Assembly (NCBI RefSeq): GCF_003234085.1
Contig: NZ_QKSD01000002.1
Span: forward strand, 186,001-250,000
DNA: 64,000 bases
Direction: 5' to 3'
Origin: Curtobacterium sp. MCPF17_052
GTDB lineage: Bacteria > Actinomycetota > Actinomycetes > Actinomycetales > Microbacteriaceae
Shown: positions 1,113 to 16,610 of the stretch, in pieces
Position numbering within the stretch: position 1 is the first letter of the stretch
Layout: every line of letters begins with the position of its first letter
Notes under the pieces: model-generated
Databases searched by the model: none
What the model was told of the DNA's origin: nothing
The model's input: only the letters and a program-made list of their open reading frames with translations
Program-made: the position numbers and the translations under genes

Positions 1113-1138
1113 TCGATAGTCGATCCGCTACCGGGCAC
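1113..1138. repeat. Dispersed cassette repeat, copy 1
   Basis: TCGATAGTCGATCCGCTACC followed by GGGCAC. Leftmost copy seen, 44 bases upstream of the SLATT start, in the common orientation (GATC-GCTACCGGGC on the plus strand). Confidence 0.7.
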
Positions 1139-1402
1139 CCGAATGGTCCCCTGATCGGTGTCCGTCCCCGGGAGAACGGACTCCGATCGTCCCCTTGAAG
1201 CAGGCACTCGCGGCGGCGCCAGGAGGAAACCTCGTCCTGACGGAGGACAGCGCTGTCGACAGAGGGAGACCAGGACTCATCGAAGCCCTCGGCAGCTGAC
1301 TCCTAACCCACTCGAATAGAGCTTCGACTCACGCTATCGCACCTGGGCGGCACCTGCGCACATGCAGCGGGACTGATCCTCCGAACCCTCAGCGGTGCTG
1401 AC
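1139..1402. other. Gene-free stretch left of the motif cluster
   Basis: No ORF with coding character is visible on either strand in this part of the 560-base gap between the SLATT gene and the first small gene of the array. It holds a second partial repeat half (CTGATCGGTGTCCGTCCCCG near 1151) and then unremarkable sequence up to the GACA motif cluster. Confidence 0.4.
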
Positions 1403-1590
1403 AACGCAGCACTACTTGTCAAAAGCGCGGTCTCGGACAATTTAGGTTGCGTGTTTGACACGTTGTTCCCGCAGCCACACGACACACGACTGTCGGCGGA
1501 GTCACTACTTGTCGCCGACTCCGCTCACGAGTCTCGGCGACGGCGCGCGTGTCACTCAATTCGACCAAACATCGTGTCGCCGCTTCGACG
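1403..1590. repeat. Left cluster of GACA-N7/8-TGCGA-like motifs
   Basis: Several related half-sites occur in both orientations: complement of 1404-1422 (TTGACAAGTAGTGCTGCG), 1435-1453 (GGACAATTTAGGTTGCGTG), 1455-1474 (TTGACACGTTGTTCCCGCAG) and complement of 1496-1514 (GGCGACAAGTAGTGACTCC). The 11-mer CACTACTTGTC occurs exactly twice, at 1410-1420 and 1503-1513. The same motif recurs more densely at 16.92-17.18 kb, on the other side of the array. Clustered degenerate sites in both orientations suggest binding sites for a DNA-binding protein or recombinase; the binder is unknown. Confidence 0.5.
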
Positions 1591-1602
1591 GCGCTAGGGC
1601 CG

Positions 1603-1632
1603 TCTCGATAGCCAATCCAGTACCGAACGAGA
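1603..1632. repeat. Dispersed cassette repeat, copy 2
   Basis: TCGATAGCCAATCCAGTACC core with outer arms GTCTCG and CGAGAC that are inverted repeats of each other. It lies about 25 bases beyond the stop of the small membrane-protein gene at 1656. Confidence 0.65.
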
Positions 1633-1655
1633 CGACCCAGCTCTCCGAGGGGCAG

Positions 1656-1802
1656 TCAGCGCTTGCGGCGAAGAAACATCGTGACTCCGACAGCGACGAT
1701 CGCCACGATCACGAGGACGAACGCCCACAGAGGAATCGTGGCGCCCGACTTCGGACTGACAGCAGCGGGCATGACGACCGCGGTTGCGACGAGTGCGTTC
1801 AT
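1656..1802 (-). CDS. Small single-helix membrane protein (48 aa)
   Basis: A short minus-strand frame that encodes a hydrophobic N-terminal stretch (NALVATAVVMPAAVS), then one clear membrane helix (PLWAFVLVIVAIVAVGVTMF) and a basic end RRKR. A second in-frame ATG at 1835 would add 11 polar residues and would place the start inside repeat copy 3. No known family was recognised. It sits between repeat copies 2 and 3 as a self-contained unit of the array. Coding is supported by the membrane profile and the positive-inside tail, but the size makes the call uncertain. Confidence 0.45.
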   Translation of the reverse strand: MNALVATAVVMPAAVSPKSGATIPLWAFVLVIVAIVAVGVTMFLRRKR

Positions 1803-1830
1803 GTGCCTGAGACTAGAGGGCGACCGCTGT

Positions 1831-1860
1831 CTCATAAGCCGATCGGCTACCGAGACGGAT
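1831..1860. repeat. Dispersed cassette repeat, copy 3
   Basis: ATAAGCCGATCGGCTACC with outer arms GTCTC and GAGAC. On the minus strand the TAG stop of the next gene (1849-1847) lies inside the repeat. Confidence 0.75.
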
Positions 1861-2098
1861 TTTGCGGCTCGCGTCGTGCTGCTCGTACGGATAGGAAGAT
1901 GCTGGCACCCCAGCAGACAACCCCGAGCAGGATCACCCCGCTACCGATCCAAATCGCAGTCGAGTGACCGAGCGCTGCATTGCTAGCGACGAGAGCGATG
2001 CCGGACAGTACGAGCGTGCCACTCACCACGTCGAGCAGGACGCGAGCCCATGATCGTCCTGTTCCTTCGAGGCCGAAGGTCTCTCTCAGGGTGCGCAT
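1847..2098 (-). CDS. Two-TM membrane protein, unknown function
   Basis: An 83-residue protein with a basic N-terminus, two hydrophobic helices (about 20-40 and 49-69) and a short basic tail (SVRAARREP). The family was not recognised. Its TAG stop is supplied by repeat copy 3, so the last codons (PSR) and the stop come from the repeat. It is one of several small membrane proteins in this array. A host-encoded or cassette-borne membrane function is possible, but nothing in the sequence fixes a role. Confidence 0.6.
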   Translation of the reverse strand: MRTLRETFGLEGTGRSWARVLLDVVSGTLVLSGIALVASNAALGHSTAIWIGSGVILLGVVCWGASIFLSVRAARREPQNPSR

Positions 2099-2640: not shown

Positions 2641-3009
2641 ATGACGAGTCCGGGGTGGTTGGGAACGGTCGGCTGCGCTCTGCTCGTGCTCCTCGTTGAC
2701 GCGGCGATCTGGGGTGTTGTGTCGATCGCGACGAATGGAATGGGTCGGAATCACGCGGCTGGCATTCGATTGCCGTCGCTGATGCGCAGCGACGAGGCCT
2801 GGCGAGCCGGCCATCTTGCCGCGCGGAGAGTCATGCGGCCGTTCTTGATCGCGGCGGCGATCGTCGTGGTCGTGTCGATCCCAGCGCAACTGGCGCCAGC
2901 GCTCTACGTCGTGCTGCTCGGGCTTTCCCTCGCCTGCACGCTGGCCGCTCTCGGGGCAGGTGCGCTGTCCGCGTCCCGGGCTGCTCGCCAAATCACTCGG
3001 GACGGCTGA
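2641..3009 (+). CDS. SdpI-like three-helix membrane protein
   Basis: A 122-residue integral membrane protein preceded by a very strong ribosome binding site (GGGAGGCGGAG). After a first helix, the NHAAGIRLPSLMRSDEAWRAGH segment (about 37-58) resembles the conserved loop of SdpI/YhfL-type proteins (N..GIR...S.eaW...H), followed by two more helices (about 68-85 and 90-107). SdpI in Bacillus gives immunity to a secreted toxin; the same role here is only a possibility. The gene is flanked by array repeats on both sides and points opposite to its neighbours. Confidence 0.7.
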   Translation: MTSPGWLGTVGCALLVLLVDAAIWGVVSIATNGMGRNHAAGIRLPSLMRSDEAWRAGHLAARRVMRPFLIAAAIVVVVSIPAQLAPALYVVLLGLSLACTLAALGAGALSASRAARQITRDG

Positions 3010-3210: not shown

Positions 3211-3220
3211 AGCTGAACCC

Positions 3221-3673: not shown

Positions 3674-3717
3674 AACCGAACCCTAGGTGGAAAGCCGCAG
3701 CCCTTGTCCCAGGAGAC

Positions 3718-3733
3718 CATCCGGTACCGGACT
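3718..3733. repeat. Possible degenerate cassette repeat
   Basis: CATCCGGTACCGGACT keeps the outer CGGTA...TACCG arms of the repeat but lacks the central CCGATCGG. It lies exactly where a boundary between two single-gene units is expected. Confidence 0.3.
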
Positions 3734-3761
3734 CCATCTGGTCGCGCTTTCGACTTTCCGG

Positions 3762-3992
3762 TCACTCAGGGTGACCGAAGATGGACAGGAGTGTCCAGAC
3801 GATGCCGATCATCGCCAGCCCTGCAGCGAGCACACGGACGAGTCCCGGGGTCATCGCACCTTGCGGACCCCGGCTTCCCAGCTGGGCGTCGAGGAAGAAC
3901 TGGGAGATCGGCGCCGGACGTACGAACGCGGTGACCGCTACTGCAACGATTGCCGGCCCAGCGATCAGTCCGGGGATCCACATGAACTCCAC
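3762..3992 (-). CDS. Small two-TM membrane protein
   Basis: A 76-residue protein with two hydrophobic helices (about 7-25 and 52-71) joined by a polar segment with a QFFLDAQLGSRGPQ stretch. The second helix is followed by only a few residues. No family was recognised. It lies between the degenerate repeat at 3718 and repeat copies 6 and 7. Codon-position GC looks like that of real actinobacterial genes, but no strong ribosome binding site was seen. Confidence 0.5.
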   Translation of the reverse strand: MEFMWIPGLIAGPAIVAVAVTAFVRPAPISQFFLDAQLGSRGPQGAMTPGLVRVLAAGLAMIGIVWTLLSIFGHPE

Positions 3993-4032
3993 ACAACCAG
4001 GTCGACCTGATGGCGGTGGGGTGTAGCTGCCC

Positions 4033-4056
4033 GCTAGCGGATCGGCAACCGGACGG
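4033..4056. repeat. Dispersed cassette repeat, copy 6
   Basis: GCTAGCGGATCGGCAACC then GGACGG. It lies 48 bases from copy 7; paired copies like these also occur at 4624/4696 and 5441/5572, as if each neighbouring unit kept its own end. Confidence 0.6.
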
Positions 4057-4080
4057 GGCTGACGGCCCTGACCGTGTCCT

Positions 4081-4104
4081 GGATGACGATCGTCTACCGG
4101 GCGG
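4081..4104. repeat. Dispersed cassette repeat, copy 7
   Basis: GGATGACGATCGTCTACC then GGGCGG. The complement CCGGTAGAC carries the TAG stop of the GNAT gene. Confidence 0.7.
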
Positions 4105-4579
4105 CTAATGCTCGTTGGTAGAAGATGAGCGAGTCACGGCGCCCCGTCTCCGTGAAGCCGTTCCGCACGAGAACACGCTGTGATGCATCGTTGTCTTGGG
4201 CCGTGTCTGCGGTCGCGACGGTGGCGCCGCAGTCGCGGGCGCGTTCGAGGGCCAGCTTCACCGCCTCGGTCGCTAGCCCCTTGCCGCGGGCCGCCGGCAC
4301 CAGGCCGTAGCCGAATTCGACCACCCCCTGCTCGTCGGGCGGGCCGAAAAAGCCAAAGCCGCCTACTGCCAGACCATCCGAGGTACGGCGAATCATGTAC
4401 ATCGTGAAGTCCGGGTCAGGCTTTGGCGCGTCAGCGAGTGATCGGAGTGGGTCGAGCTCGTCGGGGTAGGGGTACTCCGGATGCCAATCGTCTCCGGGAC
4501 GCTCGTCCCGAGCGACGATGCGCCGTGCAAGCTCTGGCGAGATCGGCTCGAGGACCACATGAACGTTCCGAAGGATCAT
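4094..4579 (-). CDS. GNAT-family N-acetyltransferase (RimJ/RimL-like)
   Basis: A 161-residue acetyltransferase. The central VEFGYGLVPAARGKGLATEA segment is the GNAT motif A (R/Q-x-x-G-x-G/A), where the acetyl-CoA pyrophosphate binds, followed by a NDASQRVLVRNGF motif B typical of the RimJ/RimL branch that acetylates N-termini or small molecules. The start at 4579 is preferred over an upstream in-frame ATG at 4600 because it matches the usual family N-terminus (ILRNVHVVLEPI). Substrate unknown. Stand-alone GNATs are frequent cargo of mobile gene-cassette arrays. Its TAG stop lies within repeat copy 7. Confidence 0.85.
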   Translation of the reverse strand: MILRNVHVVLEPISPELARRIVARDERPGDDWHPEYPYPDELDPLRSLADAPKPDPDFTMYMIRRTSDGLAVGGFGFFGPPDEQGVVEFGYGLVPAARGKGLATEAVKLALERARDCGATVATADTAQDNDASQRVLVRNGFTETGRRDSLIFYQRALAAR

Positions 4580-4623
4580 GAACCGATCCTCGCAGGGCAA
4601 CGCCAGAGGATGCAGCGCTTGTG

Positions 4624-4650
4624 CCCGGTAGCCGATCGTTCACCGGGACC
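4624..4650. repeat. Dispersed cassette repeat, copy 8
   Basis: CGGTAGCCGATCGTTCACCG with flanking CCC and GGACC; common orientation, 45 bases upstream of the GNAT start. Confidence 0.75.
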
Positions 4651-4695: not shown

Positions 4696-4720
4696 CAGTT
4701 GCCCGGTGAACCCCTACAAG
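4696..4720. repeat. Dispersed cassette repeat, copy 9 (inverted)
   Basis: Complement reads TTGTAGGGGTTCACCGGG. Divergent copy in the opposite orientation; its TAG is the stop of the hydrolase gene. Confidence 0.5.
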
Positions 4721-5388
4721 GCGTCAGCGGCGCCCGGATGATCCTGTGGCCGATGTCCGTAGCCGGTGAGAGTCATCCGTCGGGCACGGTGCAGCTGCGA
4801 AGCAATTGCTTCGTACTCCTCGTTCCAGCCTCCGGTGATCACGAGCATCGGCACGTCGACGTCCGACGGCGTATCCAGGGTCCACGGCCCAGGGAGCCTG
4901 CGCTGCCGATCGGCAGCCAGGAGTTCGTCCGGGCTCACCGGCGATGTCCCGGCAATGCCAGTGAGGGCTGTTGCGAACGCGACGGCGAACTGCGCGGTGT
5001 CGATTTCGGCCGCGGTATCGAGCACTGGTTGTACGCGGTCGATGTGCGCCTCGACTGCCGCGTTGCCTCGAGCCAGCGCGTACGCAGCAGGCTCAAAGAG
5101 CACCAGCCCTGCGATCAGGTCGGGCCGGTGAGCTGCGGCGCGCATTGCGATCGGCCCACCGTACGAGTGTGCGACGACGACAGCGCCTGGTGAGCAAGTG
5201 CCGATGAGCGTCGACTCCCAGGCATCTTGCTCGAAGGCGACAGCTGCGCCGTCCCCGTAACCAGGCATCACCGCAAACCGAGCGTGCTCGATGTGAGCCG
5301 CGATGGGCCAGGCGCGGTCGAAGGTCCGGTTCGATCCGTGCAGGAAGACGACCGCTCTCTCGCGGTTCCCGGGAAGGGCGTCTGCCAT
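4714..5388 (-). CDS. Alpha/beta hydrolase
   Basis: A 224-residue alpha/beta-fold hydrolase. The oxyanion region VVFLHGSN (about 13-20) is followed by the nucleophile elbow AHSYGG (Ser near 74) and a C-terminal GYGHRPQDHP that supplies the catalytic His; an acid near the VITGGWNEEYE segment completes the probable triad. The enzyme would act in the cytoplasm on an ester or lactone; the substrate cannot be read. The gene is a single unit between repeats 9 and 10 and takes its TAG stop from repeat 9. Confidence 0.8.
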   Translation of the reverse strand: MADALPGNRERAVVFLHGSNRTFDRAWPIAAHIEHARFAVMPGYGDGAAVAFEQDAWESTLIGTCSPGAVVVAHSYGGPIAMRAAAHRPDLIAGLVLFEPAAYALARGNAAVEAHIDRVQPVLDTAAEIDTAQFAVAFATALTGIAGTSPVSPDELLAADRQRRLPGPWTLDTPSDVDVPMLVITGGWNEEYEAIASQLHRARRMTLTGYGHRPQDHPGAADAL

Positions 5389-5440
5389 GACTGAAACGCT
5401 AGCAACCGTGGCTCCGCTCGTTGCAGCGGAGCACGCCCGA

Positions 5441-5463
5441 TCAAGGATCGGCTACCGGGCGGG
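5441..5463. repeat. Dispersed cassette repeat, copy 10
   Basis: TCAAGGATCGGCTACCGGGC followed by GGG, common orientation, upstream of the hydrolase start. Confidence 0.75.
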
Positions 5464-5571
5464 CTCGGCCGCAACAGCTACCCCGCTGCGTGCTCGAGCT
5501 GTTCGGTTGCTGCGCGGCCCCACCCGTTGGGGTCGTCCCCGGGGGGCACAACGGCCATGGAGTACCAGCAC

Positions 5572-5593
5572 ACGAGGACCGGCTACCAACGGA
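5572..5593. repeat. Dispersed cassette repeat, copy 11
   Basis: ACGAGGACCGGCTACCAACG. The complement TTGGTAGCCGGTC supplies the TAG stop of the phosphotransferase-like gene. Confidence 0.55.
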
Positions 5594-6322
5594 GTTCCTC
5601 GTCCGTGAGGGTTTGAACTGCTTGGTATCCGTCTAGAAAATGCTCCCGAACGGACACTGAGACCGGTCCCCAGTCCCGGAAGAGTGTGCCGAGCATGACC
5701 GCTGAACGAGCGAGTTCAACGATTCGATGGTCAAGTCGAAGCTCTTCGAAGTCGAGAACGCCGACGACTTCAGTGCCTGCGCATAAGATGTTCGCCGCGC
5801 GGTAGTCGCCCTGCACGATCTGCATGGGCGGAAGGTCCGCCGGCACTCGTTCGAGCATCTGCCCGAGGACGTCGCGGGTCTGCGGGGACACCGTGGACGG
5901 CTCGGAGGCGAGCCAGCCCGATACCTGCTGGGTGAGCGGTGCCGGCGGCGACAGGACCTCGTGTTGCGCGTCGCGCATCGGGTACGAGCGCAACGCATCG
6001 TGCAGCCGAGCAAGCGTCGCCCCCGCTGCCCGAACCTGATCGGCGTCCTCAACGCTGAGATGGACTCCATCGATGATGCCCTGCACGCCCATCGATACGC
6101 CGTCGTTCGTCACCTGAACCTCACCCGCGAGCGTCGGCAGCGGAGCAGACACCGGCAATCCCTGTGCCCCGAGCCAAGCAGTGAGCTCGGCTGCGAAGGC
6201 GAGCCGTTCGAACCGGTCGGATGCGACCGACCACTTCAACAGCAGACGCTCGTCGTCTCTGCGAACCCATGCAAGCGCGTTGCTGTCACTCAGCACCACG
6301 CGCTCCGGGAACCCGACCCGAA
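5583..6322 (-). pseudogene. Aminoglycoside phosphotransferase-family gene, 5' end lost to an IS3 fragment
   Basis: The minus strand encodes most of an APH/choline-kinase-type domain: the catalytic loop VQGDYRAANIL (the usual HGD has become QGD, the Asp is kept) and the metal-binding LDFEEL. The N-terminal lobe starts abruptly at about 6322 (GFPERVVLSD), where the sequence turns into the 3' part of an IS3-type orfA. The open frame continues upstream into the transposase in another frame, so a fused product from an internal start is possible, but the normal first strand and nucleotide loop are missing. Flanked by repeats 11 and 12; TAG stop from repeat 11. Confidence 0.65.
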
Positions 6323-6609
6323 CCCGGCAGGTTCGCCTGCGACAGATACGCCGCCGCTCGGCGCAGCACCTCGACTTCCTGCTCGAGGAGCCGGTTCCGC
6401 CGCCGCAACTCACGGACTTCGTCGGACTCGGCACGCGTCGTTCCGGGACGCTCCCCGTCTTCGACGGCAGCGCGGCGCAGCCACTTCGTCAACGTCATCG
6501 GGTGGACACCGAAGTCGGCGGCGATCTGCTCGATTGTCACTCCCGGCTCACGGCTCCGAGCAACACGCACGACATCGTCGCGGAACTCCTGCGGGTAGGG
6601 CTTGGGCAC
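6322..6609 (-). pseudogene. IS3-family transposase OrfA remnant
   Basis: A GTG at 6609 opens a frame that starts PKPYPQEFRDDVVRVARS and continues through a helix-turn-helix (VTIEQIAADFGVHPMTLTKW) and a leucine-rich coiled region (ELRRRNRLLEQEVEVLRRA) to AYLSQANLP, the usual C-terminal end of IS3-type OrfA proteins. No OrfB catalytic (DDE) part follows; the sequence changes directly into the phosphotransferase-like gene. No terminal inverted repeats were found. This is a fragment left by an insertion and deletion, and it marks disruption of one cassette. Confidence 0.7.
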
Positions 6610-6700
6610 GATGGCATCCTTCCAGGCTGCCCTCCCGGGCAAGCCAGATCAGACGTCACCTATCCGTGCAGCAGACCCCTGGAGTCGGTGTCCCGCTTGA

Positions 6701-6762
6701 CGGTGGGCTACCGAACGCTGGCTCAATCGCTCTTGATCGTTCCGGTAGGGGATCGGTGAGCG
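6701..6762. repeat. Long composite cassette repeat
   Basis: GGTGGGCTACCGAAC, a centre containing CTCAATCGCTCTTG, then GTTCCGGTAGGGGATCGG. The arms CTACCGAAC and GTTCCGGTAG pair imperfectly. It matches 2403-2470 (inverted) and 8101-8177. Confidence 0.7.
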
Positions 6763-6819
6763 GACGCCTTCGTATCAGAGGCCACGACCTCGGCGCAGCG
6801 CGAGTGAGACACTGCCGGA

Positions 6820-7260
6820 GTGATCAAGAACATCCAGGTAGAGTTGAACATCCATGGACAACGAGGCTCTTCGGTGCATGTGACACAACTCTTGGGCGTC
6901 GCACCAGACGAGCAGTACGAAATCGGCGACCTCAAGGGAGACGGTCCCCGCGTCTTCGACGTATCGATATGGAACCTATTCAGCAACCGTCACGTTGACG
7001 AGATCCGCACAGAGCACGGGCGAGACCCTTGGGGGCGTGTGCAGTGGATGCTGCCGGAAAACTCGGCGGAGCTATTCGCGGGTCTACGCGACGAGGGCTA
7101 CGGGGCCAACCTGTCTGTGTCCCTCATCACCGACCACAAGGAGAACACCTTCACGGTGCCGGCGGAGGTGTTGCGGCAGGTGGCAGCCGCTGGGCTCGAT
7201 CTCGAGCTGTCACCCGTATCGACCAAGCACATGGACATCTCGTACCGCGACTTCTGGTGA
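6820..7260 (+). CDS. DUF4279-like protein
   Basis: A 146-residue soluble protein from a GTG at 6820. The N-terminal HVTQLLGVAPDEQYEIGD followed by a strand with WNLFS, and the later AGLRDEGYGANLSVSLIT and VPAEVLRQVAAAGLDLEL segments, fit the DUF4279 pattern (a small alpha/beta fold often seen beside polymorphic-toxin immunity genes). No catalytic residues are apparent. An immunity role is a guess from the family's usual company; no toxin gene is adjacent. It shares a repeat-bounded unit with the membrane-protein gene at 7346, 85 bases downstream. Confidence 0.65.
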   Translation: MIKNIQVELNIHGQRGSSVHVTQLLGVAPDEQYEIGDLKGDGPRVFDVSIWNLFSNRHVDEIRTEHGRDPWGRVQWMLPENSAELFAGLRDEGYGANLSVSLITDHKENTFTVPAEVLRQVAAAGLDLELSPVSTKHMDISYRDFW

Positions 7261-7345
7261 TCCCGACGCCGTCAGCGGGACACGCTCAGAACCGTCCGAT
7301 GACGGGTCGGCTGTCGGACGCAGGCCCCGGTCTACGCTGGATGCT

Positions 7346-7591
7346 ATGACCAGGCCAGACCCAGGGAAGTCGGCGGATGAGATGAGTCGGTCAGGCTCAG
7401 TGGCGATGCTTGTGTTCGGAGTGATTTCGCTTGGAGTCGCTCTTCTGTTTGTGACTACCGCGAGCCCTTTTGAGCCGGCCGGCCGCAGCCAGCTTCCCGC
7501 AATTGTCCTCGCAGGCGTCGCTGCCTTGGCTGGGATTGGTTGCATCGTGCTCGGGGCCCGACAGCTCGTACGCCTCCGGAACACACGCTGA
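7346..7591 (+). CDS. Small two-TM membrane protein
   Basis: An 81-residue protein with a polar N-terminus (TRPDPGKSADEMSRSG), two hydrophobic helices (about 18-37 and 49-71) and the basic end RQLVRLRNTR. No family was recognised; it resembles the many short uncharacterised actinobacterial membrane proteins. It follows the DUF4279-like gene in the same direction and is closed by repeat copy 13. Confidence 0.55.
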   Translation: MTRPDPGKSADEMSRSGSVAMLVFGVISLGVALLFVTTASPFEPAGRSQLPAIVLAGVAALAGIGCIVLGARQLVRLRNTR

Positions 7592-7650
7592 AGGACAACG
7601 AGCCGCGCGACCAATAGTCGGCCCTACGCTCGATGTCACTTCCACGTATC

Positions 7651-7675
7651 GGATGACGATCGTTCACCGAGACGG
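7651..7675. repeat. Dispersed cassette repeat, copy 13
   Basis: GGATGACGATCGTTCACCGA then GACGG; 59 bases after the stop of the membrane-protein gene. Confidence 0.7.
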
Positions 7676-7756
7676 AAGCAATGCTCCGGTGAGCGGGCAG
7701 ACGGGCGTAGCGTCGAGGTCGCGAAGTAGCTTCGCACTGCCCACCGAAGGAGCCCC

Positions 7757-8074: not shown

Positions 8075-8084
8075 TCCTCCAACT

Positions 8085-8177
8085 GCCGATCGGCTACCCC
8101 TCCGATAGCCGGTGGGCTACCGAACACCGCCTCGGTCGCTCTTGGTTGTTCCAGAAGGGGATCGGCTGCCGGGCGGT
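8085..8177. repeat. Long composite cassette repeat
   Basis: Starts with GCCGATCGGCTACCCC, then CCGATAGCCGGTGGGCTACC, a centre with CTCGGTCGCTCTTGG, and GTTCCAGAAGGGGATCGGC, and ends in TGCCGGGCGG. It looks like a complete composite of short copies on both sides of the longer imperfect hairpin. Confidence 0.7.
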
Positions 8178-8931: not shown

Positions 8932-8988
8932 GGGGTTACCTCCGATCGACGAAGTGCGTTCTTCCGCGCTCCTCCGGCTTGAGCATAC

Positions 8989-9003: not shown

Positions 9004-9029
9004 ATTCGTTACCTCGCGAAAGTACGGTT

Positions 9030-9884: not shown

Positions 9885-9964
9885 CCACGCACCCGCATTG
9901 CAACAGAAAGCGCTCCTGGATACGGCCGGGAGCTGGGGCGCGCCGACTGCCTCGCAGTGCTCGG

Positions 9965-10309
9965 TCACGCGCTCGTGATCAGCGCATCCAGGAGGCCGGG
10001 GAATCGTTGCTCAAAGTCCCATCGGCGAAGTTGCACGCGGTGGGAGCGTCCCTCCGCGAACGTTCGTGTCAGACCGACTTCTCGGAGGATGCGGAAGTGG
10101 TGCGACATGGTCGCTCTCGACAGGTCGCATCCCCAGTCCGTCGTGCTCTTGTTCAGTGCCTCACCAGAAGCAAGGACCTTCACGATCTGCAACCGGACCG
10201 GGTCGACGAGGGCTTTGAGCACGTCGACCAGCTCGACACGAGCCAGATCCGCCACCGGGTACTCATCGGTATCGGGCGCAAGATCCGTGCGTAGGTCCGT
10301 CGCGTGCAT
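9965..10309 (-). CDS. ArsR-family winged-helix regulator
   Basis: A 114-residue ArsR/SmtB-type repressor. LVDVLKALVDPVRLQIVKVL (about 28-47) is the typical first helices, followed by the recognition region SRATMSHHFRILREVGL and a wing EGRSHRVQLR. The metal-binding ELCVC box of ArsR is absent, so the ligand is probably an organic compound exported by the divergent MFS pump. It is closely paralleled by a second ArsR/MFS pair at 14.4-16.0 kb. Confidence 0.8.
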   Translation of the reverse strand: MHATDLRTDLAPDTDEYPVADLARVELVDVLKALVDPVRLQIVKVLASGEALNKSTTDWGCDLSRATMSHHFRILREVGLTRTFAEGRSHRVQLRRWDFEQRFPGLLDALITSA

Positions 10310-10362
10310 GTGCTGATTGTACGACGATGACCGAACGAAACGTCGGCGCTTTGGTGGATTGG

Positions 10363-10391
10363 TTGACGGTCATCTAACAGTGCGGTAGCGT
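10363..10391 (+). promoter_or_regulatory. Promoter of MFS gene, leaderless
   Basis: TTGACG (10363-10368) and TAGCGT (10386-10391) are separated by exactly 17 bases. The ATG at 10399 follows seven bases after the -10 box and has no ribosome binding site, so the mRNA is probably leaderless. Confidence 0.6.
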
Positions 10392-10398
10392 CCACTGC

Positions 10399-11634
10399 AT
10401 GACGTCGATCGAACAATCAAGGTCCCCGCGCGGCCCGTACCTCCGCCTCGGAGTCCTGGCGGCGGCGCTCTTCGTCGTCGGCACGAACGCCTTCGTCGTC
10501 GCGGGTGTCCTCCCTCAGATCGCTGCAACTCTGCACGTCAACACGGCACAAGTCGGCTACACCATCACCGTGTACGGAATCGTCGTAGCGATCGTCTCCC
10601 CGGTAATCGCAACGATCTTCGCGAAGGTGCCACGCGCTGCACTGATGGCTGTGGGGCTCGCGGTGATCACGGTAGGTGTCGCCGTCACGGCCGCATCCAC
10701 CACCATCGGATCCTTCACGGTCGGACGCTTGGTGGCGGCTCTGGGGGGTGCCGCGCTCGTGCCCGCAGCGACCGCCGTGGCACCACGGCTCCTTCCGCCC
10801 GAGCGCCGCGGTCGAGCATTGACCGCGGTAGGCCTGGGCTTCACCCTGGCGACCGCGCTCGGGGCACCCGCCGGGACGGCGCTTGCTGCGGTGACGAGTT
10901 GGCGGGTGCCGTTGGTGGCCGTGACCATCGTGTCCGCCGTCCTGGCCGTTCTCGTCGCCGTCAGCCTGCGCCGCGCACCGACCGACGCGCCTCTCTCCGC
11001 CCGAGCTCGCCTCGGAGTGCTGAGGGAGCGCCGGGTCGCCGCTGCCTTGTTGACGACGGTGTTCCTCTGCTTGTCCTTCAACATCGTTTACTTCTTCAGC
11101 TCCGCCGTCTCGGCTCCTGTGACGCACGGGAACGGGTCACGCCTGGCTGTCCTGCTGCTCCTGTACGGCATCGGCGGGATCGTCGGCACGCTTCTTGCCG
11201 GCCCTATCACCGACAGGTTCGGCAGCGGGGCCATCTTCACCGCCGCGATTACCGTCGAGGTAGTCGTCTTCGTGCTGCTGACACTCGCCGGCAACTCATT
11301 CGCTGAGGCCGCTGTCCTGTTCGCCTTCTGGGGACTCGCGGGCTTCGGCGCAGGCATCCCCCTCCAGCACCGTCTGGTGAGCATCAACCCGGCCACCGCA
11401 GGAATCGCCCTGTCCTGGTACAACACGGCCCTCTACGTCGCCATCGCGCTGGCTCCGATCCTGGGCGGCCTCGTCGTGGACGCGCACGCTCAGGCTTTGC
11501 CGCTGATTGGCGACGGAGCGGCTGTGCTTGCGCTCGTGGTCTTCACCTTCACCCGAGACGGCCGGCCGAACACGCACACGGCCACCCTGAACCGGCCCGC
11601 AACCCAAACCACCCCTCCCGGAGGACAGAAATGA
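10399..11634 (+). CDS. MFS multidrug/arabinose-type efflux transporter
   Basis: A 411-residue major-facilitator protein with about 12 membrane helices. The first helix contains LFVVGTNAFVVAGVLPQIA, the signature of the DHA1 (AraJ/Cmx-like) exporters, and the loop after helix 2 has the RAALMAVGLA form of motif A. It is divergently transcribed from an ArsR regulator and overlaps the next gene by ATGA. The physiological role is probably export of a toxic organic compound sensed by the regulator. About half of the residues in helix 1 are the same in the second MFS protein at 14437-15636. Confidence 0.85.
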   Translation: MTSIEQSRSPRGPYLRLGVLAAALFVVGTNAFVVAGVLPQIAATLHVNTAQVGYTITVYGIVVAIVSPVIATIFAKVPRAALMAVGLAVITVGVAVTAASTTIGSFTVGRLVAALGGAALVPAATAVAPRLLPPERRGRALTAVGLGFTLATALGAPAGTALAAVTSWRVPLVAVTIVSAVLAVLVAVSLRRAPTDAPLSARARLGVLRERRVAAALLTTVFLCLSFNIVYFFSSAVSAPVTHGNGSRLAVLLLLYGIGGIVGTLLAGPITDRFGSGAIFTAAITVEVVVFVLLTLAGNSFAEAAVLFAFWGLAGFGAGIPLQHRLVSINPATAGIALSWYNTALYVAIALAPILGGLVVDAHAQALPLIGDGAAVLALVVFTFTRDGRPNTHTATLNRPATQTTPPGGQK

Positions 11635-12110
11635 CCAACTCAAACACCGAACCGTCCGACGTCCAACTGCTCCTCGACCAAACGGCGATAACACAGCTCG
11701 TCTACCGGATTGCCCGTGCGATGGACGCGCGGGACTGGGCGCTCCTCAGTGACTGCTTCACCCCGGACGCAGTCGGCGACTTCGCAAACGGCGACGCCGA
11801 TGGCTTGGACGCGATCCTGACGCAGTACCGGAACTTCCTCAACCCGCTCGAGGTCACACAACACCTCGTCAGCAACGTCGAACCTGCTGTCAGCGGCGAC
11901 ACCGCAACCGCCCACACGACGTTTCAGGCCCAGCACCTCCGCACGACCGACGGCACCGGCCAGTACCTCCTCGGCGGAAACTACGACGACGAGCTCATCA
12001 AGACCACGGCGGGCTGGAAGATCCAGAAGCGACGCGTTCGGGGCCTTTGGAGCGCTGGCGACGCCACCGTCTTCGCTCGACCTCTCACGCGTCCCAGCGC
12101 CTCGAACTGA
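11631..12110 (+). CDS. SnoaL-like/NTF2-fold protein
   Basis: A 159-residue protein of the nuclear-transport-factor-2 fold. The opening ITQLVYRIARAMDARDWALL followed by DCFTPDAVGDF is the classic start of SnoaL-like domains, and a QAQHLRTTDGTGQYLLGG strand pair lies in the second half. These domains bind or isomerise small hydrophobic molecules. The ATGA overlap with the MFS gene places it in the same transcript, so it may modify or sequester the exported compound; no catalytic residue assignment is possible. Confidence 0.75.
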   Translation: MTNSNTEPSDVQLLLDQTAITQLVYRIARAMDARDWALLSDCFTPDAVGDFANGDADGLDAILTQYRNFLNPLEVTQHLVSNVEPAVSGDTATAHTTFQAQHLRTTDGTGQYLLGGNYDDELIKTTAGWKIQKRRVRGLWSAGDATVFARPLTRPSASN

Positions 12111-12358
12111 CCGTCGGACCACCACCGCAAGCGGCCCTGGCGCGGTCGAACGAGAGCGGTCAGTTGTCCGCCTCGTCCGCCCGTGAGGGCGTGCGGACGA
12201 TGGCGACCTGCTGCTCAGCGTGCCCTTCGCAGGCCCATGATGTCTCGGAACCGGCGTGATCTCGACCGGCGACGTCTGACCACGAACAAACACCCGCAGA
12301 ATTCGCCGCCGTGCCATGGTTCGCTCGAGCGGCGGGGCCGTCTGTAGGGCGTCGTCTC

Positions 12359-13126
12359 TTACTCCTCGAAGTGCTCTCCGGTCCTACGCCGCCGGGCTGA
12401 AGCACCGCTCGTTGCCAAGTTGTCTACCCACTCGCGAAGGAGTGCGCTCGTCGCCCCAGGGCAATCTCGGTGAGGACTGTGCCCTGCCCCGGCCACCGTC
12501 TCGTACCGCACACGTGAGTTCGCGCCCAGCACCTCCCGCGCGATGGACGGGCCGAAGACCGTGAAGACCTTTGGATCGCCAGCGATGATGAGAGTCGGAG
12601 CACGCAAAGCCGCAACGTCGGCAAGCCGGTCCCAGGGATCGTTGTCGTCAAACGTTGCAGCGACGGCGGCTGGGTCGGCGGCCTGAAGGCCTACGAATCG
12701 CTCGGCATGGTCTCGAGCATCCCAATGAGGCTGCTCGGCCACGACCTGCTCAAGCGAGCTCTCAAGAGCGATGAGCTCTTGACGACGGGTATCGGCCCTG
12801 ACGCCCTCGTCGAGCCGGAGAACAGGATCGATCAGCACAAGCTGGCGCGCCCAACTGGTGTCTCTTGCCGCGGCACGGACAGCGATCGCGCCCCCAAGCG
12901 AGTGCCCGACGACGACATCCCAAGGACCGGAGGCCGGCCGCAGCGCAAGTACGTCGTCCGCGTAGTCATCATGGCGAGACGCACCACCACGCGTCCCCGC
13001 ACCGTGGCCCCGAAGATCAGGCGCGGCTACGGACCAGCCCATTGCCTGCAACTCTTCCTCGAAACGCCACCACGTGCCGGCCGCGCTGCCAAGACCGTGC
13101 ACGAGCAGCGCGCTGCGATTCGTCAT
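12359..13126 (-). CDS. Alpha/beta hydrolase
   Basis: A 255-residue alpha/beta hydrolase. The oxyanion strand ALLVHGLGSAAGTWW, a DLRGHGAG loop, the nucleophile elbow GHSLGG (Ser near 75) and a C-terminal AGAGHSPHRD (catalytic His) are all present; the probable acid lies in LIIAGDPKVF. The C-terminal 20 residues are unusually Arg/Ser rich. Substrate unknown. It is downstream of and antiparallel to the SnoaL-like gene, with a 248-base gap in which no convincing gene was seen on either strand. Confidence 0.8.
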   Translation of the reverse strand: MTNRSALLVHGLGSAAGTWWRFEEELQAMGWSVAAPDLRGHGAGTRGGASRHDDYADDVLALRPASGPWDVVVGHSLGGAIAVRAAARDTSWARQLVLIDPVLRLDEGVRADTRRQELIALESSLEQVVAEQPHWDARDHAERFVGLQAADPAAVAATFDDNDPWDRLADVAALRAPTLIIAGDPKVFTVFGPSIAREVLGANSRVRYETVAGAGHSPHRDCPGATSALLREWVDNLATSGASARRRRTGEHFEE

Positions 13127-13312
13127 GGCACCACGCTATCGGCCCCGACGGAGACTGAAGGTAACGACCGCCCCGCCATCCGTGCATTACGCGAGCCCTC
13201 CACCGGACCGTACGGGAAGGTCCGCAATTACTCATTCTGGACGCGGAGGACGCGCGACCGACGCGGAAGACCGCCGCAGAGCGCATCCAAGGAGAGCTCC
13301 TGCGGCCGTAGC

Positions 13313-13340
13313 GCCCGGTAGACGATCGGTCAGCGGACGA
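13313..13340. repeat. Dispersed cassette repeat, copy 15
   Basis: GCCCGGTAGACGATCGGTCA then GCGGACG; common orientation, upstream of the small membrane-protein gene. Confidence 0.65.
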
Positions 13341-13371
13341 AGCCATCGAGCGTTCATATAGCGTCATTCGC

Positions 13372-13623
13372 GTGACCGACATGCAGCAGCGCAGCCTCCT
13401 TGAACGACTTGTCGGGAAGCCAAGACCGTGGGTCGTCTGGGCATATGCCGGCCTTGCCGTTATCTGGGACCTCCTCGCCATCATCGATCCGTCCAGGCTT
13501 CACACCTTCATGGCAATCGCGTGGACGATCCTCGCCGGGCTCCAGATCGGCTCCGCCCGCTACGTCCGCCGGCAGGAGCGAAGCCGCGCTCACAACGCAG
13601 ACAGAGGTGACGTCGCCCACTGA
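13372..13623 (+). CDS. Small two-TM membrane protein
   Basis: An 83-residue protein with two helices (about 20-38 and 46-63) separated by the turn DPSRLHTF and a basic tail (RYVRRQERSR). No family was recognised beyond a general resemblance to short actinobacterial membrane proteins. It forms a minimal unit between repeats 15 and 16: 30 bases separate repeat 15 from the start and about 10 bases separate the stop from repeat 16. Confidence 0.6.
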   Translation: MTDMQQRSLLERLVGKPRPWVVWAYAGLAVIWDLLAIIDPSRLHTFMAIAWTILAGLQIGSARYVRRQERSRAHNADRGDVAH

Positions 13624-13634
13624 CCTCAACGGCG

Positions 13635-13663
13635 CGTCCGGTAGCCGATCGGCTACCGGGACG
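13635..13663. repeat. Dispersed cassette repeat, copy 16 (best palindrome)
   Basis: CGGTAGCCGATCGGCTACCG, a perfect 20-bp palindrome, extended outward by CGTC and GGACG. This copy is the closest to the consensus. Confidence 0.85.
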
Positions 13664-13682
13664 ACAAAGGACGAACTCGCTA

Positions 13683-14035
13683 TCAGCCCGTCGTGTTGAC
13701 GGGTGCGGATGGTTCGTCGGGTTCGTCGGGTCCGTCGGCAACGAACTCCATCGTGATGAGGTCCAACAGGTCCCGTGACAGCACGGCGGTAACGATGCGT
13801 CCGTCGGGCAGCGGCGCACCGACCCCGACCACGAACGCATCCGTGTCGATCATCATCCCGCCATCAGCGACAGCCCCATCGACGATGACGTCCGCTGACT
13901 GCACCGCAGACTGCTGCACCAGGGGTGTCCACGGTTCTTCGGTCGGATCACCGAGCCCGTAGTCGCGACGAAACGAATTGTGAAGGACGTAGTCGACATG
14001 CTCGGTGAGCAACGTCGGCAGGTCTGCGGTCGTTG
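13683..14035 (-). pseudogene. 3' fragment of an unrecognised gene
   Basis: The minus strand encodes about 115 residues of good coding quality (TEHVDYVLHNSFRRDYGL, SADVIVDGAVADGGMMIDTD, LLDLITMEFVADGP) ending with a TGA at 13683. Upstream of about 14035 the same frame turns into sequence antisense to a hydrolase fragment, so the 5' part has been lost. No family was recognised for the remaining part. It lies just inside repeat copy 16. Confidence 0.45.
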
Positions 14036-14224
14036 CGTCGGGTGCTGACCAGCACCACGTTCTCCTACTCCGACGGTCTGGCCCTGTGGGAGAAGGCGCC
14101 CAACGCCAAGGACTTCGACGTCGTCGAGGGTGCTGGGCACTACGAGATGTACGACGAGGCGGAGTACGTCGACGAAGCAGTCGAGACCCTGCATGCCTTC
14201 TACCGGGAGCACCTCGCCGACTGA
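14036..14224 (+). pseudogene. C-terminal fragment of an alpha/beta hydrolase
   Basis: About 60 residues on the plus strand match the end of dienelactone-type hydrolases: SYSDGLALWEKAP followed by VEGAGHYEMYDEAEYVDEAV, with the catalytic His in GAGHYEMYD, and an end HAFYREHLAD. The nucleophile part is missing. Its left end abuts the fragment at 13683-14035, so the junction near 14035 is a recombination scar. Probably not functional. Confidence 0.6.
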
Positions 14225-14436
14225 ATCGCTCGACAGCATCTTCCGCGGATGACGAATGGGCACCGCCGCTTGTAGATCTCCAGGGCTTGGCAGCGGCCAC
14301 GGGACGATCGGCCGCTGAGACGAGACCACCCGAGCAGAGAGGGTGTCCATCGGCGCTCTGGTCCGCTGATCCACGTTGAGCGTTCTCGTAGATCGTTTCG
14401 ACGCTGATCCCAACCGAAACCTGATGCACGTGCGAC

Positions 14437-15636
14437 TCATCGCGCCGATCGGCGTTTCCCGGTCCGCGTCGAGACGGCGACGAGTGCGAGCGCGACGAGT
14501 GCGGCGATGCCCGCCACGAGGAGCACCGCCCACGTGCCGAGGTGGAGTGCTGCCGCACCGAGGACGGGAGCGACGGCGATGCCGACGTACGTCGCGGTTG
14601 AGTACCACGACAGTGAGACGCCGATCTCTGCCGGGTTCGCCGCGACGAGGACGGCCTGGATCCCGATCTGCGGGGCGATGGCGACGAGGCCCCAGACGGC
14701 GTAGAGGGCGATCGCGCCGGGGAGGGAGTCGGTGGATGCCGAGAGCGCCGCGTAGACCGCGGCCATCGCGAGGAGGCCGAGCACTGTGGCCCACACGCCG
14801 CTTTGACGATCCACCGCGACGCCACCGAGCCAGGTGCCCACCAGGGTTGCGAGCCCGAAGGAGAGCAGCACGACGGCGAGCAAGGCGGGGCGCCCGCCGA
14901 CGACCGGCTCGAGGACCTCGGAGGTGAAGACGTAGAGCACGTTGAACGACACCATGTAGGACACCATCGCGACCAGCGCGAGGAGGATCCGGCGATCCGC
15001 GAGGACGCTGAAGCGCTCCCGCAGCGACCGCGCGGCAGCGCCGGGGATACCCGTCATCGTCGACCCGAGCGTGAGCGCGAGGAGGCCGGCGAGCACCGCG
15101 ATGCCGACGAGCGCGGCCCGCCACCCGATCCCCGCAGCGACCGCGGCGCCGAGCGGCGACCCGAACGCGATCGCGCCGGCGAATCCTGCGGTGACGATCG
15201 CGATCGCGCGTCCACGGTGGTGCGGCTCGACGAGCGTCGGGGCAGCGGCGGTGGCGGGCGGCACTAGGGCCGCGCCGCCGAGCGCGGCGACGATCCGGCC
15301 GACGATGAAGACGTCGACGTTCCCAGCGACCGCCGTGACCGCGGTGCCGATCGCGACCAACGCCATCCCGGTTGTCAGTAGGCCCCGGCGTGGGACCACC
15401 GCCAGGAACGTCGCGACCACCGGCGACGCGAGCGCGACGACGGCGGCGTACCAGGTGATCGCCGTGGCGACCGTCGCGGTGGAGGTGCGCAGTCCCTCGG
15501 CGAGGTCCGGTAGGACGCCGGCGATCACGAACGCGTTCGTCCCGACCACGAACAGTGCAGCAGCGAGGACCCACAGGCGTGCCAGTGCAGGAGCGCCCAT
15601 GCCACGAGCCGGATACGATCGTTCGAAGGATGTCAT
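14437..15636 (-). CDS. MFS efflux transporter (second copy type)
   Basis: A 399-residue 12-helix major-facilitator protein starting MTSFERSYPARG. Helix 1 (VLAAALFVVGTNAFVIAGVL) is nearly the same as in the MFS at 10399-11634, and helix 4-5 boundaries (FIVGRIVAALGGAALVPPA) also match closely. It is divergent from an ArsR regulator, repeating the arrangement at 10 kb, which argues for duplication or repeated acquisition. Likely a drug or metabolite exporter. Loss of a SnoaL-like partner distinguishes this locus. Confidence 0.85.
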   Translation of the reverse strand: MTSFERSYPARGMGAPALARLWVLAAALFVVGTNAFVIAGVLPDLAEGLRTSTATVATAITWYAAVVALASPVVATFLAVVPRRGLLTTGMALVAIGTAVTAVAGNVDVFIVGRIVAALGGAALVPPATAAAPTLVEPHHRGRAIAIVTAGFAGAIAFGSPLGAAVAAGIGWRAALVGIAVLAGLLALTLGSTMTGIPGAAARSLRERFSVLADRRILLALVAMVSYMVSFNVLYVFTSEVLEPVVGGRPALLAVVLLSFGLATLVGTWLGGVAVDRQSGVWATVLGLLAMAAVYAALSASTDSLPGAIALYAVWGLVAIAPQIGIQAVLVAANPAEIGVSLSWYSTATYVGIAVAPVLGAAALHLGTWAVLLVAGIAALVALALVAVSTRTGKRRSAR

Positions 15637-15676
15637 ACGGACACGCTAGTGGACCGTTAGGCTTTTATCGAACGAT
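15618..15676. promoter_or_regulatory. Candidate ArsR operator pair
   Basis: ATCGTTCGA (15618-15626, within the first MFS codons) and ATCGAACGAT (15667-15676, just before the arsR-type start) are reverse complements around the divergent promoters. Symmetric short sites flanking both promoters fit an ArsR-family autorepressor; inferred only. Confidence 0.35.
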
Positions 15677-15686
15677 TGGATGCGCA

Positions 15687-15998
15687 ATGCCCGAGTACCC
15701 GAGTGCCGACCTCGCGGACATCCCGCTCGAGACGGTCCTGAAGGCGCTCGGCGATCCCACACGCCTCGAGATCGTCCGGATGCTCGCCGACGGCGCGCCG
15801 TTGCCGAAGAACGACGTCTGGGCGGCGTTCGCCGCGTCGAAGGCGACCTGTTCGTACCACTTCAAGACCCTCCGCGAGGCGGGCGTGGTGGTGTACGAGG
15901 TGCACGGCCGCACGCACGACATCCGCCTGCGTGTGAACGAGCTCAACCTGCGGTTCCCTGGCCTGCTGCTGGCTGTGACATCGGGCCCGCATCGCTGA
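15687..15998 (+). CDS. ArsR-family winged-helix regulator
   Basis: A 103-residue repressor with LETVLKALGDPTRLEIVRML, the ArsR N-terminal helices, a recognition region KATCSYHFKTLREAGV and the wing GRTHDIRLR. It lacks the ArsR metal box; a single Cys in the recognition helix (TCSYH) might matter for sensing. It is divergent from the MFS gene and resembles the ArsR at 9965-10309, including the shared end NLRFPGLL/EQRFPGLL. Confidence 0.8.
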   Translation: MPEYPSADLADIPLETVLKALGDPTRLEIVRMLADGAPLPKNDVWAAFAASKATCSYHFKTLREAGVVVYEVHGRTHDIRLRVNELNLRFPGLLLAVTSGPHR

Positions 15999-16144
15999 GG
16001 TCACCGGAACAATGCCTTGACGCACCGCATACGCCGCGATCGACGCTGCCATTGGCGTCGTCGACGCTGACTGCTTGAATCGCGCAGGAGTGCAGCCCGA
16101 CGGGATCGCCGCCCTTCGCGCTCGGTTTAGCTCCGACGCAACCC

Positions 16145-16175
16145 CGTCTCAGTAACCGATCCTTTCCTGGTCACT
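16145..16175. repeat. Dispersed cassette repeat, copy 17 (degenerate)
   Basis: CGTCTCAGTAACCGATCC followed by TTTCCTGG. It keeps the GTCTC outer arm and the GTAACCGATC half but has lost the right half. Confidence 0.4.
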
Positions 16176-16203
16176 GGACTTGAAGAGCGAGGAAGCTCGA
16201 GCG

Positions 16204-16521
16204 GTGCAAGCGAACATCAGATCGGTGACGGTGCAGGGCCGGGCTCAGGACCGTGACGCCGACCTCGACCGTGTACAGCAGTTCGAAGTTGAGACCGATA
16301 CGGGTCACCGTTATGTGGTCACCTGCGAAGGCCCACCGGTTGGGTCTCCCTCGGACTGGAAGGTGACTAGCGCCGATGATGGTCACCTGGTCGGTAGTGT
16401 CCGGTTACTTGGCGCAGGCATGCCTGGCGCGACCAACTACCGGTACAAGAGAGCCGGCGCGCTCCTCGCGGGCGGTAAGCAGTTCGATCTGTGGAACGCG
16501 GTGCAGTCCCTGTTGCGGTGA
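16204..16521 (+). CDS. Hypothetical soluble protein (105 aa)
   Basis: A GTG at 16204 preceded by GAGGAAG is preferred; a TTG eight codons upstream is also in frame. The product is a small soluble protein rich in charged strands (FEVETDTGHRYVVTCEG, PSDWKVTSADDGHLVGSVRL) with no membrane segment. No family was recognised. It is the last single-gene unit of the array, between repeats 17 and 18. Confidence 0.5.
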   Translation: MQANIRSVTVQGRAQDRDADLDRVQQFEVETDTGHRYVVTCEGPPVGSPSDWKVTSADDGHLVGSVRLLGAGMPGATNYRYKRAGALLAGGKQFDLWNAVQSLLR

Positions 16522-16580
16522 TGGCCCCTGCTGGCCGGGCATACAACCAGCGCTCGGCCACTTCGCGGAGCTCTTGAGCG

Positions 16581-16610
16581 TGTCCGATAGCCGGTCGTCC
16601 ACCGGTACAC
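16581..16610. repeat. Dispersed cassette repeat, copy 18 (rightmost)
   Basis: TGTCCGATAGCCGGTCGTCC followed by ACCGGTACAC. Its outer arms TGTCC and the ACCGGTACA end partly pair. No further copies were seen to its right. Confidence 0.6.

Follow-up and report, generated by a model that had tools for sequence, protein, structure and literature searches.

A site array in the first 16.6 kb of the window

The DNA analysed here (the window: 64 kb, positions 186,001–250,000 of contig C12) belongs to a Curtobacterium assembly of 3.54 Mb in 31 contigs with an estimated completeness of 76.6%, and its left part holds an array of short sites lying between mostly small genes, which we describe as cassettes. 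The repeat unit is a near-palindrome of ~31 bp, CGGTAGCCGA|TCGGCTACCG (the bar marks its centre). With a fixed site profile, built from 28 copies in the window's own genome, 21 sites of at least 9 bits were detected, all within 1,114–16,604 and none in the rest of the window. A covariance model gave a best E-value of 3.5e-10 inside 1.1–16.6 kb and of 0.47 outside, and the core was found at up to three mismatches in seven places of the window (one of them exact), compared to none in 100 dinucleotide-preserving shuffles. These results are close to those of the initial annotation of this DNA, which had noticed about nineteen copies at 1.1–16.6 kb and none in the other 47 kb. Its further remark that most copies share one orientation did not survive, since the site is nearly symmetric: the better-scoring strand was plus for 7 sites and minus for 14, and the right-side GGGCGG or GAGACGG is the outer part of one half-site, mirrored on the left by GCGTC, GTCTC or GCCC. 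A weight matrix that was iterated with no stop rule wandered off to codon-like sequence and was dropped for the fixed profile.

The GC content of the window, taken in 2-kb steps, is 60–69% over the first 28 kb and 69–78% beyond. Two further sites lie ~3.5 and ~3.2 kb to the left of the window start (16,492 and 16,764 in region L036). In the whole genome, 25 places matched with up to three mismatches (two in a reversed control), distributed over contigs C7 (11), C12 (7) and C1 (4), with one each in C3, C6 and C27.

The products encoded in the window array comprise GNAT, two hydrolases, APH-family, DUF4279, SdpI-like, MFS and NmrA-like proteins. From the left, sites 1 (1,114–1,133; 30.9 bits), 2 (1,606–1,625; 25.6 bits) and 3 (1,833–1,852; 29.6 bits) open the array, and the DNA to the left of site 1 matches region L094 at 92.8% up to a site there. 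Sites 4 (2,397–2,416; 14.1 bits) and 5 (2,446–2,465; 31.3 bits) bound a mini-cassette of 49 bp and are followed by an SdpI family gene (2,641–3,009, plus strand; PF13630, 1.6e-8). Homology with regions L119 and L123 starts at site 6 (3,710–3,729; 18.3 bits), and that with L119 ends at site 7 (4,032–4,051; 24.9 bits); this cassette (3,719–4,043) has its ends at sites in all three genomes (L119 10,026–10,350, 88.3%; L123 5,446–5,130, 88.6%). Site 8 (4,080–4,099; 23.0 bits) precedes a GNAT acetyltransferase gene (4,094–4,600, minus strand; PF13302, 3.2e-18), site 9 (4,626–4,645; 30.9 bits) an alpha/beta hydrolase gene (4,714–5,388, minus; PF12697, 9.1e-11) and site 10 (5,438–5,457; 23.5 bits) a gene of the phosphotransferase (APH) family (5,583–6,434, minus; PF01636, 1.7e-19).

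A second copy of the mini-cassette lies between sites 11 (6,694–6,713; 27.6 bits) and 12 (6,743–6,762; 24.9 bits), and a DUF4279 gene (6,820–7,260, plus; PF14106, 3.7e-6) is located to the left of site 13 (7,297–7,316; 23.1 bits). Site 14 (7,650–7,669; 16.1 bits) and the weak site 15 (8,080–8,099; 10.1 bits) come next, the latter adjoining site 16 (8,103–8,122; 25.1 bits), which together with site 17 (8,152–8,171; 24.0 bits) bounds the third mini-cassette. From site 17 to site 18 (13,316–13,335; 27.6 bits), a stretch of 5.2 kb is free of sites and carries genes for an HxlR regulator, an NmrA-like oxidoreductase, an MFS transporter, a SnoaL-like protein and an alpha/beta hydrolase (8,536–13,126). 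Site 19 (13,639–13,658; 42.6 bits) has a perfect palindromic core with no mismatch, and to its right lie another MFS transporter gene (14,437–15,636, minus; PF07690, 3.3e-31), the weak site 20 (16,150–16,169; 18.1 bits) and site 21 (16,585–16,604, plus; 30.4 bits), which forms the right end of the array and is attI-like, with the centre GG|TC at 16,594.

Of the three mini-cassette copies, that at 2,406–2,455 is inverted relative to those at 6,703–6,752 and 8,112–8,161 (2,405–2,467 matches 8,163–8,101, and 2,405–2,466 matches 6,754–6,693, both inverted). Elements resembling it are also present in regions L038 and L043.

Cassette borders and the point of exchange

The exact long form of the repeat was carried only by Curtobacterium (16 of 16 genome-contig stretches), and at a loose threshold (E ≤ 0.3) all 66 Curtobacterium genomes contained it, with 7–84 matches each, a count to which both strands of one site can contribute. 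At E ≤ 0.001, 26 genomes out of a sample of 299 from the family Microbacteriaceae contained it; they represent 13 of 85 genera and include seven of Curtobacterium. Fifty-one regions (0.95 Mb), nearly all picked for repeats, contained 410 sites of at least 10 bits, compared to 3 in 0.37 Mb of shuffled sequence in which base content only was preserved.

When these 51 array regions were compared with one another, 261 of 834 homology ends fell within 20 bp of a site centre, as against 1.9% of random positions (every pair was viewed from both sides, and segments below 150 bp or 75% identity were dropped). A total of 42 segments had both ends at sites in both loci, with identities of 70.7–99.7%. Furthermore, 166 segments ended at a site without spanning one, while only 4 spanned a site in both loci, and 2 of these stem from the near-identical pair L121/L122. 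Particular cases include 2,343 bp of cassette DNA at 99.1% identity, found at two places of a single genome (L113, L114) and also in a second species (L100), and 541 bp at 98.3% that are common to two arrays within the genome of the window (L038, L041). None of 66 shared single cassettes had a shared neighbour (at least 75% identity over at least half of both cassettes, the pair L121/L122 omitted). Among 17 insertion-like pairs, all three ends were at sites in four, for instance, 609 bp in L091 that face a single site in L101. Diverged relatives (68–79% identity) of the window cassettes at 13,357–13,660 and 4,072–4,594 sit in the arrays of several other genomes, and the cassette pool is therefore shared and not only recent.

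The point of exchange was located with 86 junction pairs, some of which have a cassette in common. They had been preselected for at least 80% identity at positions +11 to +30, so that the test lies in the inner positions up to +10. Outside the centre (−30 to −2), identity remained within 0.1 of a baseline of randomly paired sites (e.g., 0.97 vs 0.96 at −10, and 0.43 vs 0.39 at −8), whereas inside it (+3 to +8) identity was 0.85–0.94 against a baseline of 0.42–0.73; position −1 gave 0.95 vs 0.86, and +1 and +2 were uninformative. In these comparative junctions, the switch in identity lies between −2 and +3, around GA|TC in the middle of the palindrome, which would place strand exchange at or beside the central dinucleotide. 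On this evidence, both ends of a cassette carry a half-site of its own (inward reading TCGGCTAYCGG), and two neighbouring cassettes contribute one half each to the junction between them.

The two half-sites also vary independently of each other. Among 368 distinct sites, the arms paired in 73.9% of cells compared to 75.1% after shuffling (997 of 1000 shuffles reached or exceeded the observed value), and among the 28 model sites in 78.6% compared to 80.7%. No compensatory arm changes, as expected of repetitive extragenic palindromic (REP) elements or terminators, were found in either set, and the lack of covariation between the two arms argues against a hairpin under selection.

Site-to-site intervals of 150–3,000 bp (n = 256) had a median length of 708 bp. 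In 80 cassette proteins, selected from 110 predicted cassette genes that had been drawn at random, the Pfam matches included nine GNAT Acetyltransf_1 domains and five alpha/beta hydrolases as well as tautomerases, oxidoreductases, MFS transporters and two zeta-toxin-like ATPases. Sites were inside predicted genes in 13 of 318 cases, a weak count given a crude gene prediction that left 155 of the 256 intervals without a gene at the threshold used. A PADLOC scan of nine longer cassette proteins returned one DrmA-like match and, for another protein, weak desaturase-type and E1-E2 matches; the former, encoded in an array interval (L108, 12,904–14,121), is a partial-model match to DrmA of the DISARM defence system, and we draw no conclusion on defence from these matches.

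The serine recombinase, its attI-like site and the orphan end

Serine-recombinase (PF00239) genes were located near several arrays, and genome G302 has four similar copies, three of them preceded by a site at a distance of 130 bp. The presence of PF00239 alone was discarded as an enzyme marker, as it was found in 9 of 12 genomes and was absent from three that have repeats (G067, G087, G015); the link between enzyme and site is based instead on the distances between sites and recombinase genes. One recombinase family (at least 66% identity) occurred in eight regions chosen by their repeats (L092, L102, L107, L117, L123, L152, L154 and L157). The protein, of ~190 aa, consists of a resolvase catalytic domain (PF00239, 1.2e-41) and a C-terminal helix-turn-helix (PF02796, 3.7e-11). 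Arg7, Ser9, Arg45, Asp67, Arg68 and Arg71, which have catalytic roles, were invariant in 8 of 8 aligned recombinases, and the closest solved chains were the DNA-invertases 4m6f (2.7e-32) and 3uj3, both Gin, followed by gamma-delta resolvase.

A site of at least 8 bits was present within 200 bp upstream of the gene in 31 of 54 distinct family members (at least 70% identity to one of two queries), in contrast to none of 17 other serine recombinases and to a chance level of 8.7% for random 200-bp stretches in the same loci. In 25 of the 31 it was located at −119 to −138, and in the other six at −49 to −80. This co-localization was also seen in members fetched through the protein alone (23 of 41). 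In the closest group (14 genes, at least 93% identity), the gene-proximal half-site is TCGTTCATCGGGACAC in 11 cases and close to it in the other three; the half-site away from the gene differs between loci, as expected if cassettes attach there. Base −1 was G at 21 of 24 scored sites before recombinase genes of subfamily A, while the centre of array sites was AT in 329 of 368. In subfamily B, four of ten Curtobacterium genes had scored sites at about −50 (one also at −80) and at +625 to +700, which suggests that this recombinase gene can itself lie in a cassette.

The complete layout, i.e., an array beside a recombinase gene with an attI-type site, was observed on two plasmids and not in the window. 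In plasmid D35 of Curtobacterium sp. MCBD17_035, the recombinase gene has a site 131 bp upstream, with the array on the 5' side of the gene: 10 sites of at least 14 bits extend from 5,391 to 14,869, namely the upstream one and nine others over the next 9.5 kb, and the genes between them encode GNAT, desaturase, nucleotidyltransferase and hypothetical proteins. A Pseudarthrobacter plasmid (L230), from a second family, Micrococcaceae, has a similar layout with weaker sites, and on a Kocuria plasmid, one site precedes the recombinase gene, with no array in the examined stretch. Within the 299 genomes of the family, the enzyme was detected in 15 of 26 with the repeat and in 33 of 273 without it (Fisher p = 3.2e-7), and in 12 of 19 against 33 of 273 when Curtobacterium was excluded (p = 1.0e-6); these tests ignore relatedness and count kin genomes apart, which flatters the p values. 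The enzyme's family is very large (3,507 proteins at E ≤ 1e-70 among 8,000 scored candidates), and only part of it may need to work on cassette sites. On plasmids, relatives were counted in 553 records (E ≤ 1e-40), of which 276 fall under 60% identity, and 33 records came from Clavibacter plasmids, the best at about 75% identity.

The right end of the window array resembles the DNA before these genes. A leader segment at 16,649–16,716 (plus strand), located +55 to +122 from the centre of site 21, the same distance as in L142, is 80.9–86.2% identical to L141, L142, L143, L144, L154 and L157. The recombinase gene would be expected from about 16,725; no recombinase match was found in that region (L037). 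Judging from these comparisons, the window array is an orphan that has kept its attI-like site and leader and has no recombinase gene. Similar ends without a recombinase match were found in the second array of the same genome (L038) and in another species (L113), with 90 and 87% identity over about 375 bp.

The initial annotation had offered a non-integron cassette system or an integrase-less array as readings, and both descriptions hold, the latter for the window array, which retains the recombinase upstream region without the gene. The same cassettes with repeats at their borders and a co-occurring recombinase, which it had proposed to look for, were indeed encountered, the former in other places and genomes and the latter as a serine recombinase gene often at a fixed distance from a site. 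Neither of the two outcomes that it had named as contrary was seen: shared cassettes do not retain the order of their neighbouring genes, and the sites form clusters.

More distant enzymes were associated with a diverged site. Its pattern was sought in ten genomes with such enzymes, and seven regions of four of them were read; the profile was trained on these same regions, from a seed that permitted A or T at +1. In four regions, the sites ran in one direction only (11 of 11, 11 of 11, 8 of 8 and 5 of 5), a fifth had 4 and 3 by direction, and two more had one site each; no site was found in 95 kb of shuffled sequence of the five regions. The centre of the diverged sites was AA or GA in 41 of 42, compared to the AT of the Curtobacterium type. 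Serine recombinases join half-sites by way of an overlap of 2 bp, to which AA and GA give polarity and AT does not; with AT, its own complement, at most centres, cassettes in Curtobacterium could lie either way. In addition, a segment of 1,201 bp, 98.75% identical across two genera, was internal in one array and beside the site in front of the recombinase gene in the other, with three of its four ends 1–5 bp from a site centre and the fourth 76 bp short.

A conserved motif near TGTCCCGCAAAAATGCCCGGTGA is located between the site and the recombinase start in the leaders of L141–L144, L154 and L157 and in the corresponding segment of the window (16,649–16,716), and partly in L092, L102 and L152. 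By eye, it looks like two direct outer half-sites, and it may represent an accessory binding site or an operator. In genome G017, two partial serine-recombinase frames (L087, 11,929–12,171 and 13,382–13,789) lie ~1.2 kb apart near two strong cassette sites, and the DNA between them resembles an insertion sequence by eye.

Proposed mechanism, alternatives and related systems

We propose, with a probability of roughly 85%, that a small serine recombinase from the resolvase/invertase family built the array, working on double-stranded DNA at near-palindromic sites of ~31 bp. A cassette would usually contain one small gene, at times several, or none as in the 49-bp unit, with a half-site at each end. 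The enzyme, which we infer to be the agent of exchange, would excise it as a circle carrying one complete site, and this site would recombine with an array site or with the attI-like site before the recombinase gene. Strands would be exchanged at or beside the central dinucleotide, which would also set the freedom of orientation: an AT centre would admit cassettes either way round, and an AA or GA centre would leave the sites of an array mostly one way round. The orphan array of the window would need the enzyme in trans.

Several observations weigh against this proposal, for which the support is comparative throughout. Most homology ends (573 of 834) lie away from any site, and 13 of the 17 insertion-like pairs have at least one end away from a site. 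Five two-cassette comparisons between arrays gave the same relative orientation in four cases and a flipped one in a single case, which is thin support for free orientation; the mini-cassette found both ways round in the window supports it better. With G at −1 in the attI-like sites of subfamily A and AT in the array centres, the overlaps differ, although a simple serine-recombinase rule would demand that they match. With regard to the enzyme, 23 of the 54 family recombinases have no scored upstream site, and an Arthrobacter U41 plasmid has the enzyme with no such site found nearby. The window's assembly, 76.6% complete by estimate, lacks any family member at E ≤ 1e-30. Among the 66 Curtobacterium genomes, just 21 have a family match that reaches 150 residues and 68% identity (fragments were found in three more); therefore, many arrays are orphans or rely on enzymes that come and go.

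Alternatively, the cassettes are real and are moved by another recombinase, e.g., XerC/XerD or a tyrosine integrase encoded to the left of the array, with the serine recombinase as a passenger. PF00589 matches were found in all 12 genomes tested (2–7 per genome), including the three with repeats and no PF00239 match, a gene for a tyrosine recombinase of 481 aa (L036, 12,257–13,702) lies about 3 kb from the first site, and the two scored sites flanking four of ten Curtobacterium subfamily-B genes would suit a passenger. We nevertheless regard this explanation as improbable, given that the site stands at a stereotyped distance before the serine recombinase gene, also in loci fetched through the protein alone, that site and serine enzyme differ together in other genera, and that a central exchange in a short, nearly symmetric site suits serine recombinases. 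Moreover, the 481-aa protein scored far below the cut-offs of four Xer-type models (28.4 bits for the tyrosine recombinase/integron integrase model, with a cut-off of 220). The 45 of 66 Curtobacterium genomes that have the repeat without a sizeable family member would also be in line with homologous recombination or illegitimate joining at short repeats, with no dedicated enzyme. This would predict junctions anywhere in the repeat, whereas the 86 junction pairs switch identity at the centre, and it does not predict the association of enzyme and site, so that we give it very little credence.

An equally slim chance is left for transposition in the manner of miniature inverted-repeat transposable elements (MITEs), in which units with terminal inverted repeats would have inserted side by side through a DDE transposase: the units do have abutting inverted ends, and the mini-cassette resembles an empty unit, but the enzyme family linked to the sites is a serine recombinase, a judgement made with no systematic survey for a transposase of matching distribution. 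Least credible of all are transcription terminators or REP-like hairpins, with homology stopping because intergenic DNA diverges fast. The near-palindromic form and the scarcity of sites inside predicted genes would fit; against this, the arms pair slightly less than shuffled ones and change independently, and segments of up to 99.7% identity break off at the centre.

Of the known systems, integrons, the textbook route by which bacteria collect single genes, are similar in layout, with gene rows and junction sites, attI, shared cassettes and integrase-less orphan arrays. The Curtobacterium system likewise lines up mostly small genes with sites between them; its recombinase gene is fronted by a special site with the array opposite, cassettes are common to several arrays and species, and orphan arrays occur. 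However, integrons employ a tyrosine integrase and a folded single-stranded attC, an imperfect hairpin with exchange in a GTT triplet, while here a serine recombinase of ~190 aa accompanies a site that is short, nearly symmetric and exchanged in the middle, and in Curtobacterium the cassettes have a half-site at both ends. The one tyrosine recombinase near the window array, the 481-aa protein, scored far too low for IntI, and the sites, judged without an attC model, differ from attC in their GA|TC exchange and their arms without covariation. The system works like an integron and yet, in these comparisons, does not show the two defining features of one, the tyrosine integrase and attC-type sites.

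Two reports on Acinetobacter plasmids describe pdif modules, i.e., site-bounded genes shuffled by XerC/XerD at dif-type sites, with experimental inversions and deletions and with plasmid pairs that differ by one module (PMC13141974, PMC12907356). The two systems are alike in that genes bounded by recombination sites move as modules, and they differ in that here there is a single serine recombinase, the sites are nearly symmetric and GC-rich, arrays occur in chromosomes as well as in plasmids, and the enzyme gene has an attI-like site. The dif consensus is AT-rich, unlike the GC-rich Curtobacterium-type site. DNA invertases and Tn3/gamma-delta resolvases belong to the same enzyme family as the cassette recombinase, and they invert or resolve a segment within one molecule; none that builds rows of single-gene cassettes was found among the literature matches listed, the multi-site Min system of p15B being the nearest in spirit. 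Staphylococcal cassette chromosome (SCC) elements are also moved by serine recombinases (CcrA/B/C) able to stack them in tandem, although these enzymes are large and the elements far larger; four recombinases scanned with the Ccr models reached 26–40 bits against cut-offs of 700–900, and the present system is not a Ccr system. Among the matches listed from the PMC literature, with preprints outside the scope, there were neither cassette arrays built by a serine recombinase nor such arrays in Curtobacterium.

In broader terms, Actinobacteria probably possess a counterpart of the integron that evolved independently. This "serine integron" would consist of a small serine recombinase and an attI-like site and be spread over chromosomes and plasmids of Microbacteriaceae and at least one plasmid of Micrococcaceae; in it, the central dinucleotide would decide between one-directional and free arrays and the recombinase gene could travel as a cassette. 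If so, Curtobacterium and its relatives would have a second way to collect single genes, unrelated to integrons, which would offer an explanation for the variable low-GC islands of these genera. Cassette borders would become predictable from sequence, a small enzyme with a short site would be at hand, and the AT-centred and the AA/GA-centred, mostly one-directional, arrays would allow a basic rule of serine recombination to be tested in natural populations.

With regard to the surroundings of the array, the gene of the 481-aa tyrosine recombinase (C12:178,257–179,702) is located beside a flagellar hook/rod-type gene, and its product may have been the integrase by which the variable island as a whole was placed. 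It is followed by SIR2-like and PIN-domain genes and by a transposase with rve and HTH_21 domains. To the right of the array, the low-GC island goes on (window 17,423–26,707) with long proteins that have no clear Pfam match, a CoiA-like nuclease-domain protein and an OLD/AbiEii-like ATPase.

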